A DNA stretch of 64,000 bases, taken from IMG/VR virus record IMGVR_UViG_3300025364_000003, positions 1 through 64,000 of that record. The stretch is one strand, 5' to 3'. Positions 22,072 to 28,716 of this stretch are shown piece after piece. Origin of the DNA: a virus. The notes beneath the pieces were generated by a model that saw nothing but the letters and a program-made list of their open reading frames with translations, was not told where the DNA came from and did no database searches. Position 1 is the first letter of the stretch. Every line of letters begins with the position of its first letter. The position numbers and the translations under genes were made by a program.

Positions 22072-22503
22072 GTGAAAGATATCGAAGAGCACCTACACCA
22101 ATATTTGTTACAGGCTGGACAAACAGTTTATTTGCAAAACACTAAAATACATGGGCGCCGAAATAAAAAAGTAAGTGTTGTTTCTTATTCCCAAGAAGGC
22201 GTTGTTGATTTCTTTATAAAATGTCATGCGAAGCTCGTTACCAATGATGATTTTAGTCATTTGGTTGAAAAATATGGCGTTGATGGCAAGCTGGGAAATG
22301 AAATTATGATAACCAATGGTCAAATGGCTATTGTGCTTGCTTCTTTCCACTGGGGCCATACTGAAAAAGAGATCAAAGCTCTCCTGGAGAAGAACGTCAT
22401 TAAAAAGCCCGAAGAAGCAACACCATCAGTAACTTGTTTCTTGCTTGTTGATGATCAATTTGTAATCGCTAGTCATGATAAGTGTAATCCTGTAGACTTA
22501 TGA
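22072..22503 (+). CDS. Hypothetical protein, first gene of the replication block
   Basis: 143 aa, GTG start at 22072 behind GAAGGAG. Mixed alpha/beta sequence (KKVSVVSYSQEGVVDFFIKC, MAIVLASFHWGHTEKEIKAL) with no recognised motif. Its stop overlaps the start of the chimeric endonuclease (ATGA-type overlap), so it is co-translated with the primase genes. Confidence 0.65.
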   Translation: MKDIEEHLHQYLLQAGQTVYLQNTKIHGRRNKKVSVVSYSQEGVVDFFIKCHAKLVTNDDFSHLVEKYGVDGKLGNEIMITNGQMAIVLASFHWGHTEKEIKALLEKNVIKKPEEATPSVTCFLLVDDQFVIASHDKCNPVDL

Positions 22504-23405
22504 GTTCAAAGTTTTTTACACAAGGGCAAGCCATTACCTTTATCGAAAAAGTTTTCGACAAGGGGCGGTTGTCTAATGGTGGAAAAAACATCTCAGTTGT
22601 TTGCCCTATGTGCAAATCTGTTAAGAATGACAGATATGAAAAACAAAAACTGGTGATAAGAACTGACAACTTTAATACTAAAAATAATAAAATTTATATT
22701 GGTCGAGCTGTATGCCTTCGACGAAGATATTTGAGGCATTTGTCTAATTTATTCGCTAAAAAATATCGTAATAAATATCTTGAAAGAGAATATTGGAAAT
22801 ACGGAGAGGATGTTTTTGAATTTGCTTTACTAAAACATGTGCCCAAAGATAAATTGGTTATTGTCGAACAACAGTATCTTAATAAATTGAAACCATTGAA
22901 TGGCAAAAAGACGTACAATCTAACATTGCATGCAGAAGGACCGGGCAATTGTTTAACAGAGTATAGTAAAATGAAAATAAGTCAAACCTTGACTGGGAGG
23001 AGACATTCTAAAAACCGCATAGAGAAGATTAAGAAATCTTGTGCCTGGCGGAAAAAACAAATAAAATTAATGTCACCCAATGGGAAGCTGGTAAAAATAA
23101 ATGGCATCGTCGATTTTTGCAAAGAATATAATCTTGCCAGAAGCGGCATTGCTAAAGTAATCAACGGCAAGAGATTACATTATAAACGTTGGTGTTTGTC
23201 AAAAAATTATGATATCGTCCTAAAAAACCAAGGTAACGTTGGTAAAAATAAACTAAAAAGAGTGTTACTCTCTCCTCAGGGTGTTTCTTATGAAGAAATA
23301 CGAAATATTAGAGACTTTTCAAAGCAAAAAAAATTATCATACTCAAGATTTTGTATGTTGTTACGTGAAGAAATAACCGAATATAAAGGCTGGAGATATA
23401 GATGA
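22500..23405 (+). CDS. Chimera: primase zinc-finger N-terminus fused to a GIY-YIG homing endonuclease
   Basis: 301 aa. Residues 1-55 (FTQGQAITFIEKVFDKGRLS, VVCPMCKSVKN, KQKLVIRT) align by eye with the start of the primase encoded immediately after (YTEGQFISFIQRSFGDGKL, LVCPFCRNAKG, KRKLAIKT), including the first zinc Cys pair but not the second. Then comes a GIY-YIG nuclease lacking its first strand: NNKIYIGRAVCLRRRYLRHL, YWKYGEDVFEFALLK, EQQYLNKLKP, YNLTLHAEG. A helical NUMOD-like tail follows (SKMKISQTLTGRRHSKNRIE). It looks like an endonuclease gene that landed in a primase gene or captured part of one. The two N-termini are diverged, so this is not a fresh duplication. Confidence 0.75.
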   Translation: MSSKFFTQGQAITFIEKVFDKGRLSNGGKNISVVCPMCKSVKNDRYEKQKLVIRTDNFNTKNNKIYIGRAVCLRRRYLRHLSNLFAKKYRNKYLEREYWKYGEDVFEFALLKHVPKDKLVIVEQQYLNKLKPLNGKKTYNLTLHAEGPGNCLTEYSKMKISQTLTGRRHSKNRIEKIKKSCAWRKKQIKLMSPNGKLVKINGIVDFCKEYNLARSGIAKVINGKRLHYKRWCLSKNYDIVLKNQGNVGKNKLKRVLLSPQGVSYEEIRNIRDFSKQKKLSYSRFCMLLREEITEYKGWRYR

Positions 23406-24450: not shown

Positions 24451-27400
24451 ATGCGCATAATTCATATCTCGGACATACATTGGCGAGGTATTCAAAGGCA
24501 TAGGGAATATAATAAAGCTTTTGAAGAACTTTACAGGCAATTGAGAGAACTCAATGTTGATCTAATCGTTAACACTGGAGATACTTTTCATACCAAAACT
24601 CAGGGCATCACTCCTGAAATTATTGAACGACTTGCTTGGATGTTTCGCTCTCTTGCGGACATTGCTCCGACATATACCCTTCTTGGCAACCATGATGGCA
24701 ACCTTACTAATTTGCATCGTAAGGACATTATTACCCCGATTCATGAATCGATTGATCATCCCAAAGCACATCTGCTTCGTAAGTCGGGCGTTTACAAAGT
24801 CGATGATCTTAAAGATCAAGATGTTTATATCGGAGCTTTTTCACCCTTTGACCAAAAAGGTTGGCCAAGTGTAAAGCCAGTAGAGGGAGCAATCAACATA
24901 GCTCTTTATCACGGTTCTGTTGCGGGCTCGGTAATGGACAATAATTGGACATTGCCTTGGGAAAACTGCGAAGCTGAGGTTTCGGACTTTACTAAGTTTG
25001 ATTTTGCGCTTCTGGGCGACATTCACAAACAGCAGTATTTGGCAAAACGCAAAGATAAGAATGGTGTTGAAAAGCCATGGATGGGCTATCCTGGCTCTCT
25101 TATCCAACAAAACTTTGGTGAAACTGAGACTAAAGGTTATCTTGTTTGGGACATCCGCACACGAGACGATTGGGATGTTTCTTTTAAGAAATTGGAGAAT
25201 TATAGCCCGTTTGTTACCATACATTGGGAAGGAACCGTAGACGAAACAATCAAGAAGGTTGTTGAAAGCAGGGGTGAAAAAGCTTTTTTGCCAGGCGCTC
25301 GTTTTAGAGTTTCTTCTTCATTTGCTATCCCTTCTATCGAAGCTAGAAAGTTAGTACATGATCTAAGAGAAGTTAGAAAAGCAAGCGAAGTAACTTTCAA
25401 ATATGACATCATTTCAAAGATGGATCATGTTGAATCCAACTCGCTGAAGATCTCCAAAAAGGGATTGAGGCAAGACCCAGATGCAGTAGTTCGTCTTTAT
25501 CTTGACTATATCAGAGCACATGCTCAAAACTATCATTTTGATATTGACCAACTAGATGAGGCTGAAAATTTGATTAGAGGCTACATGTCCAAGCTAATGG
25601 TCAGAGAGGCTGACAGTCTTACGAAGAATTGCAATTGGTCAATCAAGTCACTTGAGTTTGATAATATTTTCAGGTATGGGGAAGGAAATAGGATTAACTT
25701 CAACGATCTTGAAGGCGTGGTTGGAGTATTCGGTCCTAATCGAATCGGAAAAGCACTAGACATTAATACGCCCATACCAACAATAAATGGATGGAAAACA
25801 ATTGAGTCGATCACTACGAACGATTTTGTGTTTGATTCTAATGGTAGGCCATGTCGTGTTACTGCAAAAAGTCCAATTTATACAGAGCATAAATGCTATG
25901 AACTTGTATTTTCAGATGGAACTAAGGTGGTGGCTGATGCAGATCATCAATGGATCGTTAATGATCACAAGGCAATGGCCAAACAGAGAAAACTTACAAA
26001 ATCACATAAAAAAGTTGTTACCACCAAACAAATGTTTGAGTCTCAAACCTTTTCTGTGGGTAAAAACAAAGTAAACCATTGGTCAATTACAAATTGTTCA
26101 CCAGTACAATACCCAAAACGATTTTTACCCCTTGATCCATACGTGTTAGGTTGCTGGCTTGGTGATGGCCATTCGCACAGTTCAGAAATTACTTGTTTCG
26201 ATGAAGAAATTCTTGAAAACATAAAAAAATCTGGTGAAACGATCCTTGAGAAGAAACGACCAGGTTCATTTACGGTAAAGTTGTTGTCACCCCGCCTCCG
26301 TAGTCTAGGTGTGCTTGGAAACAAGCATATTCCCAGTATGTATATGATTGCTTCTGTACCTGAAAGAATTTCCTTATTGCAAGGTCTTATGGACACAGAT
26401 GGCAGTTGTTCCAAGTCAGGGTTGGTGGAATTTTGCCAATGTGACGAAAAACTTGCTCATCAGGTAAAAGAACTAGCATGCAGTCTAGGATTTAAAACAA
26501 CCATCAGAGTTGAAGACGCTAAGCTTTATGGCAAAACAATCAGCAAAAGATATAGAGTTTCCTTTACGCCACATAAAAATGATATTTGTCCTTTCAGACT
26601 TTCAAGAAAAGCAAACAGAATTAGGGCAGTAAAAAATGCTTTTGCAGACAGAACAAAGCGACGTTATGTTGTTGACATTAAACCGGTTCCTTCGATTCCA
26701 GTCCAATGTTTGGTGGTAGATAGCCCAGACCACTCTTTTTTGTTTGGTCGAAATTATGTTCCAACTCACAATTCTTCGATAGTGGGCGCCATTATGTACG
26801 CACTTTACAATACGACTGATCGTGGCCCAATGAAAACTGCCCACATAATCAACAAAAACAAAAACTACTGCAAAGCAAAGGTACGAATTAGTGTTGGTGG
26901 CACTGATTATATAATTGAACGTCAAAGTCAAAGAGTCATTCCCAAGAGGAATAAGAGAAAATATGACCCTGACAAAACAACCACTACTTTGAATTTCTGT
27001 CGGATTGAATGGGATGAAGAGCATGGTGTTGAGAAGAAAATTTCTGAGAACTCTATCAGTAGAGACGATACCGACAAGCAAATCAGAAACCTTATTGGCA
27101 CATCGAATGATTTTTTGCTGACGGCTCTTTCTTCGCAAGGCTCAGTTGACAAGTTTATCAAAGAGGGGCCGACAGACAGAAAAAAGATTCTAGCAAGATT
27201 CCTCGAACTTGACATTTTTGAAAAACTTTATTCGCTTTGCAAAGATGATTACAATAGCCTAAATTCAAAGGGCAGTTATCTATCGCCTGAATCTATCGTG
27301 AATCAAATCAAAAAGGCTCGTAAAAGAGCTAGCGACCTTGAGAAGAGTATTGAGGTTCTCACAGAGAGAATTTTCAAGCATCGAGAACAAAAGGATGAGA

Positions 27401-28716
27401 TCAAGCTTTGGCTAATGCATCATGAGAAGAGTGCAGCCGAAGTTGATTTGGCACAAATAGATGCACTTGAAAAGAAAATCAAGGAACTTGAAGATAAGTA
27501 CATGGCCAAGTCAACTGAACTGGAAAAAACGAGAAAAACAGTTCGAGACACAGGCAAAGCTTTGAAAACAACAACTTCTGCCAAGCGTAAGTACAACATT
27601 GATGTTCTGAACGCTGAACTCGAAAGCTTTGAAGCTTTAAAAGCAACCATGCATGAGTTAAAGCATGAGTTGAATTCGCAGAAAGCAATTTTGGAAAACC
27701 AGAAAAAGAATGTAAAAAAATTAAACGTTGTACCTTGTGGCGATCAATTTCCAGATTGTCATTATATTCGTGATGGTCACCGAGATAAGAAAAAGGTTGC
27801 CAAACAAGCAGAAACCGTAAACAAGCTTTCAGAACAGTATTCTAATGCTGAAGCTACCTTTGAGGAGTACATCGCCAAAAGGATCAAGGAAAGCATTGAG
27901 GAGTACAGAAAGCTCGATCGGGAGGAATTTGAACTTTCTTCTAAGTTAGAGTCTGCCCGAAATAACCGAAATCACATACGCTCTCAAATTACCAGTATCA
28001 AAGCTGAAATCAAGAAAACCAAGAAAGAGCTTGTCAGGCTCCAAAAGACGGTTGATATTCTTGAAGGTAAAGAATTTGAACGAAAGAAAGAATCGCTCGA
28101 CAGAATAAGAGATACTATTCATTCCTTAGAGTCTAAGAAAACCGACATTATTAGAGAGCTTGGCGGCCAACAAGAATCATTGAAGCGGCTTCTTTTAGAA
28201 GAAGAGGAAACCAAATCTCTTATCAAAAAGCTTAAGATTTACGATTCTATTGTAGCGGCTTTTTCGAAGACAGGAATTCCTGCAATGGTTTTGAAGTCGC
28301 AACTTCCCGCTATCAATCAAGAGTTGAATAAAATTCTTGAAGGAATTGTTGAATTCAAAATATCACTGGAAACTGATGTTAAATCAAATGTAATGGACGT
28401 CTATATTGAAGACGGACATAGTTCAAGAATTATTGAATTGGCTTCTGGAATGGAAAAAACTTTGGCAAGCCTTGCACTGAGAGTTGCCCTGAGTAATCTT
28501 TCCTCACTTCCAAAATCCGACATCCTCATCATTGATGAAGGTTTTGGCGCTTTAGACGAAGAAAATATTCAAAGTTCCATGGAAATGCTTACGTTTCTTA
28601 GGGGATACTTTAAAACAATTTTGGTGATTTCTCATGTTACCCAAATTAAAGAAGTGGCTGATAGAATAATTGAAGTTAAGAATGATGGTACCGAATCTAA
28701 AGTTACAACATTCTAA
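24451..28716 (+). CDS. SbcD-SbcC (Mre11-Rad50 type) fusion nuclease/ATPase with intein
   Basis: 1421 aa precursor. Residues 1-400 are an SbcD/Mre11-type metallophosphoesterase (IIHISDIHWRG, NTGDTFH, LLGNHDGN). From residue 405 an SbcC/Rad50-type ATPase begins: Walker A GPNRIGK-S (split by an intein, residues 435-774), a long coiled coil (about 880-1300) with a central C1096-x6-C1103 pair in the zinc-hook position, signature LASGMEKTLASLALRVAL, and Walker B ILIIDEGFGALD. In T4 and bacteria these are two proteins (gp47/gp46, SbcD/SbcC); here they are one chain. The spliced product would be 1081 aa. Role: DNA end processing and recombination-dependent replication. Confidence 0.93.
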   Translation: MRIIHISDIHWRGIQRHREYNKAFEELYRQLRELNVDLIVNTGDTFHTKTQGITPEIIERLAWMFRSLADIAPTYTLLGNHDGNLTNLHRKDIITPIHESIDHPKAHLLRKSGVYKVDDLKDQDVYIGAFSPFDQKGWPSVKPVEGAINIALYHGSVAGSVMDNNWTLPWENCEAEVSDFTKFDFALLGDIHKQQYLAKRKDKNGVEKPWMGYPGSLIQQNFGETETKGYLVWDIRTRDDWDVSFKKLENYSPFVTIHWEGTVDETIKKVVESRGEKAFLPGARFRVSSSFAIPSIEARKLVHDLREVRKASEVTFKYDIISKMDHVESNSLKISKKGLRQDPDAVVRLYLDYIRAHAQNYHFDIDQLDEAENLIRGYMSKLMVREADSLTKNCNWSIKSLEFDNIFRYGEGNRINFNDLEGVVGVFGPNRIGKALDINTPIPTINGWKTIESITTNDFVFDSNGRPCRVTAKSPIYTEHKCYELVFSDGTKVVADADHQWIVNDHKAMAKQRKLTKSHKKVVTTKQMFESQTFSVGKNKVNHWSITNCSPVQYPKRFLPLDPYVLGCWLGDGHSHSSEITCFDEEILENIKKSGETILEKKRPGSFTVKLLSPRLRSLGVLGNKHIPSMYMIASVPERISLLQGLMDTDGSCSKSGLVEFCQCDEKLAHQVKELACSLGFKTTIRVEDAKLYGKTISKRYRVSFTPHKNDICPFRLSRKANRIRAVKNAFADRTKRRYVVDIKPVPSIPVQCLVVDSPDHSFLFGRNYVPTHNSSIVGAIMYALYNTTDRGPMKTAHIINKNKNYCKAKVRISVGGTDYIIERQSQRVIPKRNKRKYDPDKTTTTLNFCRIEWDEEHGVEKKISENSISRDDTDKQIRNLIGTSNDFLLTALSSQGSVDKFIKEGPTDRKKILARFLELDIFEKLYSLCKDDYNSLNSKGSYLSPESIVNQIKKARKRASDLEKSIEVLTERIFKHREQKDEIKLWLMHHEKSAAEVDLAQIDALEKKIKELEDKYMAKSTELEKTRKTVRDTGKALKTTTSAKRKYNIDVLNAELESFEALKATMHELKHELNSQKAILENQKKNVKKLNVVPCGDQFPDCHYIRDGHRDKKKVAKQAETVNKLSEQYSNAEATFEEYIAKRIKESIEEYRKLDREEFELSSKLESARNNRNHIRSQITSIKAEIKKTKKELVRLQKTVDILEGKEFERKKESLDRIRDTIHSLESKKTDIIRELGGQQESLKRLLLEEEETKSLIKKLKIYDSIVAAFSKTGIPAMVLKSQLPAINQELNKILEGIVEFKISLETDVKSNVMDVYIEDGHSSRIIELASGMEKTLASLALRVALSNLSSLPKSDILIIDEGFGALDEENIQSSMEMLTFLRGYFKTILVISHVTQIKEVADRIIEVKNDGTESKVTTF
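25753..26772 (+). mobile_element. Class 3-like intein with LAGLIDADG endonuclease, inserted in the SbcC Walker A motif
   Basis: 340 aa, precursor residues 435-774, between the Lys and Ser of GPNRIGK/S. It starts with Ala (ALDINTPIPTINGWKTIESI) instead of Cys or Ser. It has the class 3 triplet: Trp in block B (DADHQW), an internal Cys in block F (VQCLVVDSPDHSFLFG), and Thr in block G (PTHN), followed by Ser +1. In class 3 inteins the block F Cys is the first nucleophile. LAGLIDADG-type motifs LGCWLGDGH and LLQGLMDTDGS mark a homing endonuclease domain. Without splicing the ATPase would be inactive because the P-loop is split. Confidence 0.9.

Follow-up and report, generated by a model that had tools for sequence, protein, structure and literature searches.

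A putative class 3 intein with a LAGLIDADG endonuclease interrupts the Walker A motif of a phage Mre11-Rad50 fusion protein

Class 3 inteins are defined by a Trp at B:12, a Cys at F:4 and a Thr at G:5 (the WCT set), together with Ser or Thr at position +1 (PMC5222942), and a structural account of the class is available (PMC7664689). In the DnaB1 intein of M. smegmatis (Msm DnaB1), the +1 Ser doubles as the P-loop Ser of the host protein, and a redox-dependent disulfide between Cys48 and the block F Cys has been reported (PMC6195587). Class 3 inteins in the P-loops of phage terminases (TerL) and DnaB-type proteins, for example in Brevibacterium phage Rousseau, mycobacteriophage Eureka and Escherichia phage MIZ4, additionally carry a LAGLIDADG endonuclease. 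Mre11/Rad50 fusions are themselves published: they are described as abundant in aquatic viruses, with Mimivirus R555 among them, and the available text of that source mentions no intein (PMC3175470).

Here, we analyzed a stretch of 64,000 nucleotides (the window) contained in a 206,528-base virus record, a metagenomic contig of a large environmental phage. On the plus strand, an intein-containing SbcD/Mre11-SbcC/Rad50 fusion gene (24451–28716) encodes a precursor of 1421 aa in one uninterrupted frame, with the SbcD-SbcC order in one chain that it has in common with the fusions covered by the available text of PMC3175470. The N-extein (434 aa, 24451–25752), delimited by domain matches and by alignment with intein-less relatives, comprises the Mre11/SbcD phosphoesterase, with the motifs DIHW (24472), GDTF (24577), GNHD (24685), YHGS (24907) and GDIH (25015), and the start of the Rad50 N-lobe. 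It ends with the first part of Walker A, GPNRIGK (25732–25752). The motif resumes at the Ser starting at 26773 with the C-extein (647 aa, residues 775–1421, 26773–28713), which holds the remainder of Walker A, the coiled coil and the rest of Rad50/SbcC, including a C-x6-C hook-like motif (27736–27759), the signature motif ELASGMEK (28435–28458) and the Walker B/D-loop (28519–28560). Metallophos (residues 1–192) and SbcC_Walker_B scored above the Pfam cut-offs in the 1421-aa ORF, and a PHROG scan matched it to phrog_77 (SbcC) at 1.9e-47. With metallophosphoesterase motifs, Walker A, signature and Walker B in a single chain, the SbcD-SbcC fusion proposed in an earlier sequence-only reading of the window is borne out.

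The insert itself (340 aa, residues 435–774, 25753–26772) splits Walker A exactly after its Lys and before its Ser, GPNRIGK|S. The Ala codon following GPNRIGK opens at 25753, and 26770–26772 encode the Asn of PTHN; the coordinates and insertion point given in that reading were exact to the base, and both the Ala start and the Ser at +1 are read in the ORF. Subtracting the insert from the 1421-aa ORF leaves an extein of 1081 aa, the product length it had predicted, and the extein motifs look complete after removal. From its start at Ala1 (25753–25755), where an N-terminal nucleophile is lacking, the insert runs through Cys48 (25894–25896), block B GTKVVADADHQW with Asp62, His65 (B:10) and Trp67 (B:12) (25918–25953), block F PVQCLVVDSPDHSFLF (26698–26745) with Cys319 (F:4, in PVQC, 26707–26709), and block G NYVPTHN|S with Thr338 (G:5), His339, Asn340 and Ser+1 (26752–26775). 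Between blocks B and F are two LAGLIDADG motifs, VLGCWLGDG with Asp138 (block C, 26143–26169) and LLQGLMDTDG with Asp214 and Asp216 (block E, 26374–26403), and both LAGLIDADG_3 and Hom_end exceed the Pfam cut-offs in this part of the protein. Since both motifs keep their acidic residues, the endonuclease looks intact. An AlphaFold2 model of the insert with five extein residues per side, built with 48 relatives, folds as a Hint domain carrying a LAGLIDADG endonuclease (pLDDT 92.9, pTM 0.92). The top PDB matches of this model are PI-SceI structures, which represent a whole intein with endonuclease; lower in the list stand the class 3 splicing domains 6bs8 and 6riy/6rix, with TM-scores of 0.81–0.87 by target length.

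Several lines of comparison place the insert in class 3 and speak against a chance resemblance. The absence of Cys, Ser or Thr from position 1 departs from class 1, and Trp67, Cys319, Thr338 and Ser+1 complete the class 3 set. When PDB sequences were searched with phmmer, the class 3 inteins Mch DnaB1 (6rix, 6riy) and Msm DnaB1 (6bs8) ranked first, with E-values of about 1e-21 to 1e-22 (reaching 6e-22) and alignments over intein residues 1–72 and about 307–340, i.e. both splicing halves. The insert has in common with these DnaB1 inteins the Hint fold, Ala1, the Cys F:4, PTHN, Ser+1 and the insertion after the P-loop Lys, and even the numbering of Cys48, Asp62, His65 and Trp67 agrees with Msm DnaB1 (PMC6195587). 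The two differ in architecture and host: the DnaB1 elements are mini-inteins that lack an endonuclease and interrupt a replicative helicase, whereas the insert carries a full LAGLIDADG domain and resides in a Rad50-type ABC ATPase. Altogether, 755 phage records match the intein, and we assembled a set of 176 complete, homologous inteins drawn from phages and from contigs of IMG/VR and GTDB. These relatives were found mainly via endonuclease and N-terminal patterns, the WCT residues being used only as THN for six loci. No variation (176/176 each) is seen at His B:10, Trp B:12, Cys F:4, Thr G:5 and Asn G:7, a count that describes the phage family rather than all inteins, since the starting profile contained WCT sequences. 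Ala occupies position 1 in 148 of the 176. The Trp, Cys and Thr that the sequence-only reading had placed in blocks B, F and G thus stand in the defining columns of those blocks, and the assignment of 25753–26772 to class 3 is strong at the sequence level.

Very probably, the insert belongs to the phage P-loop family of class 3 inteins as a full-length member that splices the fusion to 1081 aa and homes by its endonuclease. As judged from homologues, Cys319, the predicted first nucleophile, would attack the Lys-Ala bond after translation, and the N-extein would travel via the block F thioester to Ser+1. Cyclisation of Asn340 would then allow the extein halves to join into the Mre11-Rad50 fusion, restoring Walker A to GPNRIGKSS. 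In the precursor, the intein separates the phosphate-binding Lys of Walker A from its Mg-binding Ser, and the protein is predicted to be inactive as an ATPase; since the +1 Ser of the intein is also the P-loop Ser, the precursor should be without a working ATP site. By analogy with its relatives, the endonuclease would cut intein-less copies of the K|S site, spreading the element by homing, while the essential P-loop codons may guard against imprecise intein loss.

This class 3 splicing route could also be conditional: under oxidative stress, a disulfide between Cys48 and Cys319 might keep the repair nuclease as an inactive precursor. Such a switch would add to class 3 splicing and not replace it, and it is suggested by Cys48, Cys319 and Asp62/His65/Trp67, which occupy the positions described for Msm DnaB1. 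Cys48 is, however, present in 155 of the 176 relatives and may be kept for catalysis alone, and its mutation stops splicing in Msm DnaB1 (PMC6195587), so we regard the switch as unlikely. If it existed, the state of the infected cell would time DNA-end processing by the phage Mre11-Rad50 protein.

A less probable reading still is that the element follows the class 2 route, in which Ser+1 attacks directly, or that it is a decayed, non-splicing intein leaving a dead protein. Ala1 by itself would be compatible with class 2, and the available text of PMC3196547 describes an inactive class 3 pseudogene intein. Against both stand the WCT set in the correct columns, a single frame in which the splicing residues, the two endonuclease motifs and the extein motifs are all intact, and a structure model that is confident nearly throughout. 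It is hardly credible that the assembly is chimeric here or that the insert is an ordinary domain, even for a single copy on a metagenomic contig: the insertion is exact and in frame at a canonical site for inteins, both junction residues are canonical, the intein GC (0.37–0.40) equals that of the remaining gene, and closely similar DNA is absent from the rest of the collections searched.

The class 3 intein thus falls into a known and common phage family, whose habitual site is the P-loop Lys|Ser/Thr: Gly-Lys precedes the intein in 149 of the 176 relatives, and Ser or Thr follows in 164 (Ser in 96, Thr in 68). Among the hosts are terminases, DnaB and primase-helicases, as well as an ATPase similar to those of type IV secretion and a dCTP-deaminase-like protein, the names other than DnaB and terminase being assigned by reading the sequences. 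The last of these hosts, in which L129, L136 and about 20 others hold related class 3-type inteins at LEGK|SSLGRLGL, reads as a protein that is no P-loop ATPase. The phage TerL and DnaB inteins, including the IMG/VR relatives, share the LAGLIDADG architecture, the WCT columns and the GK|S/T junction with the intein of the window; their hosts are terminases, RecA-like/DnaB-like helicases and others, with no Rad50 among those checked. The highest overall identity of the Rad50-fusion intein to any relative is 44%. In the tree, it clusters, at a weak SH-aLRT of 86, with inteins of terminase type (SRQIGK and similar), and no clade reaches 95 or more, so no donor is claimed. A donor was also sought in the target DNA, where 48 bases around the site were compared with 176 other hosts; nothing beyond P-loop conservation emerged, and the weak tree neighbours rank 39th to 132nd in this comparison. 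The GC content gives no compositional sign of recent arrival, and no second intein of the class 3 family was found in the same phage record.

What appears to be new is the host. A Rad50/fusion profile, applied at E-values up to 10, matched only the extein of the window and none of the hosts of the 175 other inteins. With no Rad50-like extein among these, Rad50 appears, within the data searched, to be a new host protein for class 3 inteins, which would add a Rad50/SMC-type ATPase to their known range. Further class 3 inteins in Rad50 were found neither with three N-junction patterns and one C-junction pattern in IMG/VR, all of which require set residues, nor with profile searches, which gave the best 80 of a larger number of candidates. 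Matches to one of the N-junction patterns in IMG/VR were judged to be due to chance. In GTDB, none of 84,980 prokaryote genomes matched the N-junction pattern, and among the titles and abstracts listed by text searches of open-licence papers, none deals with a class 3 intein in Rad50, SbcC, Mre11 or gp46. In BFVD, the model A0A8S5MMH7 (Siphoviridae sp. ctxc31), named structural maintenance of chromosomes protein, contains an intein of similar fold. Compared by structure alone, this entry is the main threat to the present element's priority among class 3 inteins of SMC/Rad50 ATPases. The sequence-only reading had called a class 3 intein in an Mre11-Rad50 type phage protein unusual. This holds insofar as no other class 3 intein in a Rad50-type protein was found, but class 3 inteins in phage P-loops are common and the K|S site of phage Rad50 often holds inteins of class 1.

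These class 1 inteins came to light with a looser IMG/VR pattern, which retrieved phage SbcC/gp46-type proteins (phrog_77) interrupted at the identical Lys|Ser. Three contiguous class 1 mini-inteins at Walker A (L271 = L298, L274 and L285) lack the WCT set and instead have Cys1, Phe or Leu at B:12, Asp at F:4 and Ser at G:5. At 13 further loci, the sequences point to naturally split class 1 inteins, all beginning with Cys and some being near-copies of one another (L270, L273, L277, L278, L284, L286, L287, L290, L295, L299, L300, L305 and L308). Here, an N-intein of 27–40 aa is complemented by a C-intein half of about 125 aa on a separate ORF, about 1 kb away in most loci and with almost no gap in L284, L286 and L300. 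The gaps of L270, L278, L290 and L299 hold an endonuclease-like ORF (IEFDGTYWHG type, as read from the sequence). The class 1 gp46/SbcC inteins and the intein of the window occupy the same K|S point in the same kind of ATPase; the former differ in being mini or split, often with a separate endonuclease-like ORF, and in having exteins unfused to Mre11. Since class 1 inteins occur at K|S in many phage Rad50 loci, the site itself is repeatedly used by inteins, and the novelty in this sample lies in an occupant of class 3. One P-loop position of a repair ATPase would consequently have been invaded by mechanistically different inteins, and this matched set, with the same extein type and site in class 1 and class 3, allows splicing chemistry, rate and redox control to be compared.

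Finally, the site is empty in the aligned relatives of the fusion. Searches with the joined protein revealed that Microcystis phage Mel-JY01 and two uncultured huge phages carry the fusion in full length, and IMG/VR yielded six fusion relatives at about 50% identity. A larger IMG/VR sample covers 80 loci, including repeated and partial contigs, out of at least 531 candidates; the closest among the 80 are L019 (67% identical) and L052 (65%). All 80 give one uninterrupted match without an intein gap, which spans about 3.1 kb in complete genes. In part of them, the P-loop spelling was missed by the motif search, and the uninterrupted match is still seen. The aligned relatives all read through the site as GPNKIGK|SS and similar, a bare GxNxxGK|S(T). 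Another kind of interruption is seen in L005 (4672–5578, LR756508), where, past the GDIHK motif, about 900 bases containing an ORF with Cys pairs and a nuclease-like PDFF...EVKG motif interrupt the fusion gene. Rfam identified no intron in either the window or L005. Upstream of the fusion gene in the window, a GIY-YIG ORF (22500–23405) resembles in its first part the N-terminus of the next, primase-like ORF (blastp E 1e-12, 34% over 106 aa), as if a primase N-terminus and an endonuclease had been fused. In Mel-JY01, a GIY-YIG gene likewise directly precedes the primase gene.
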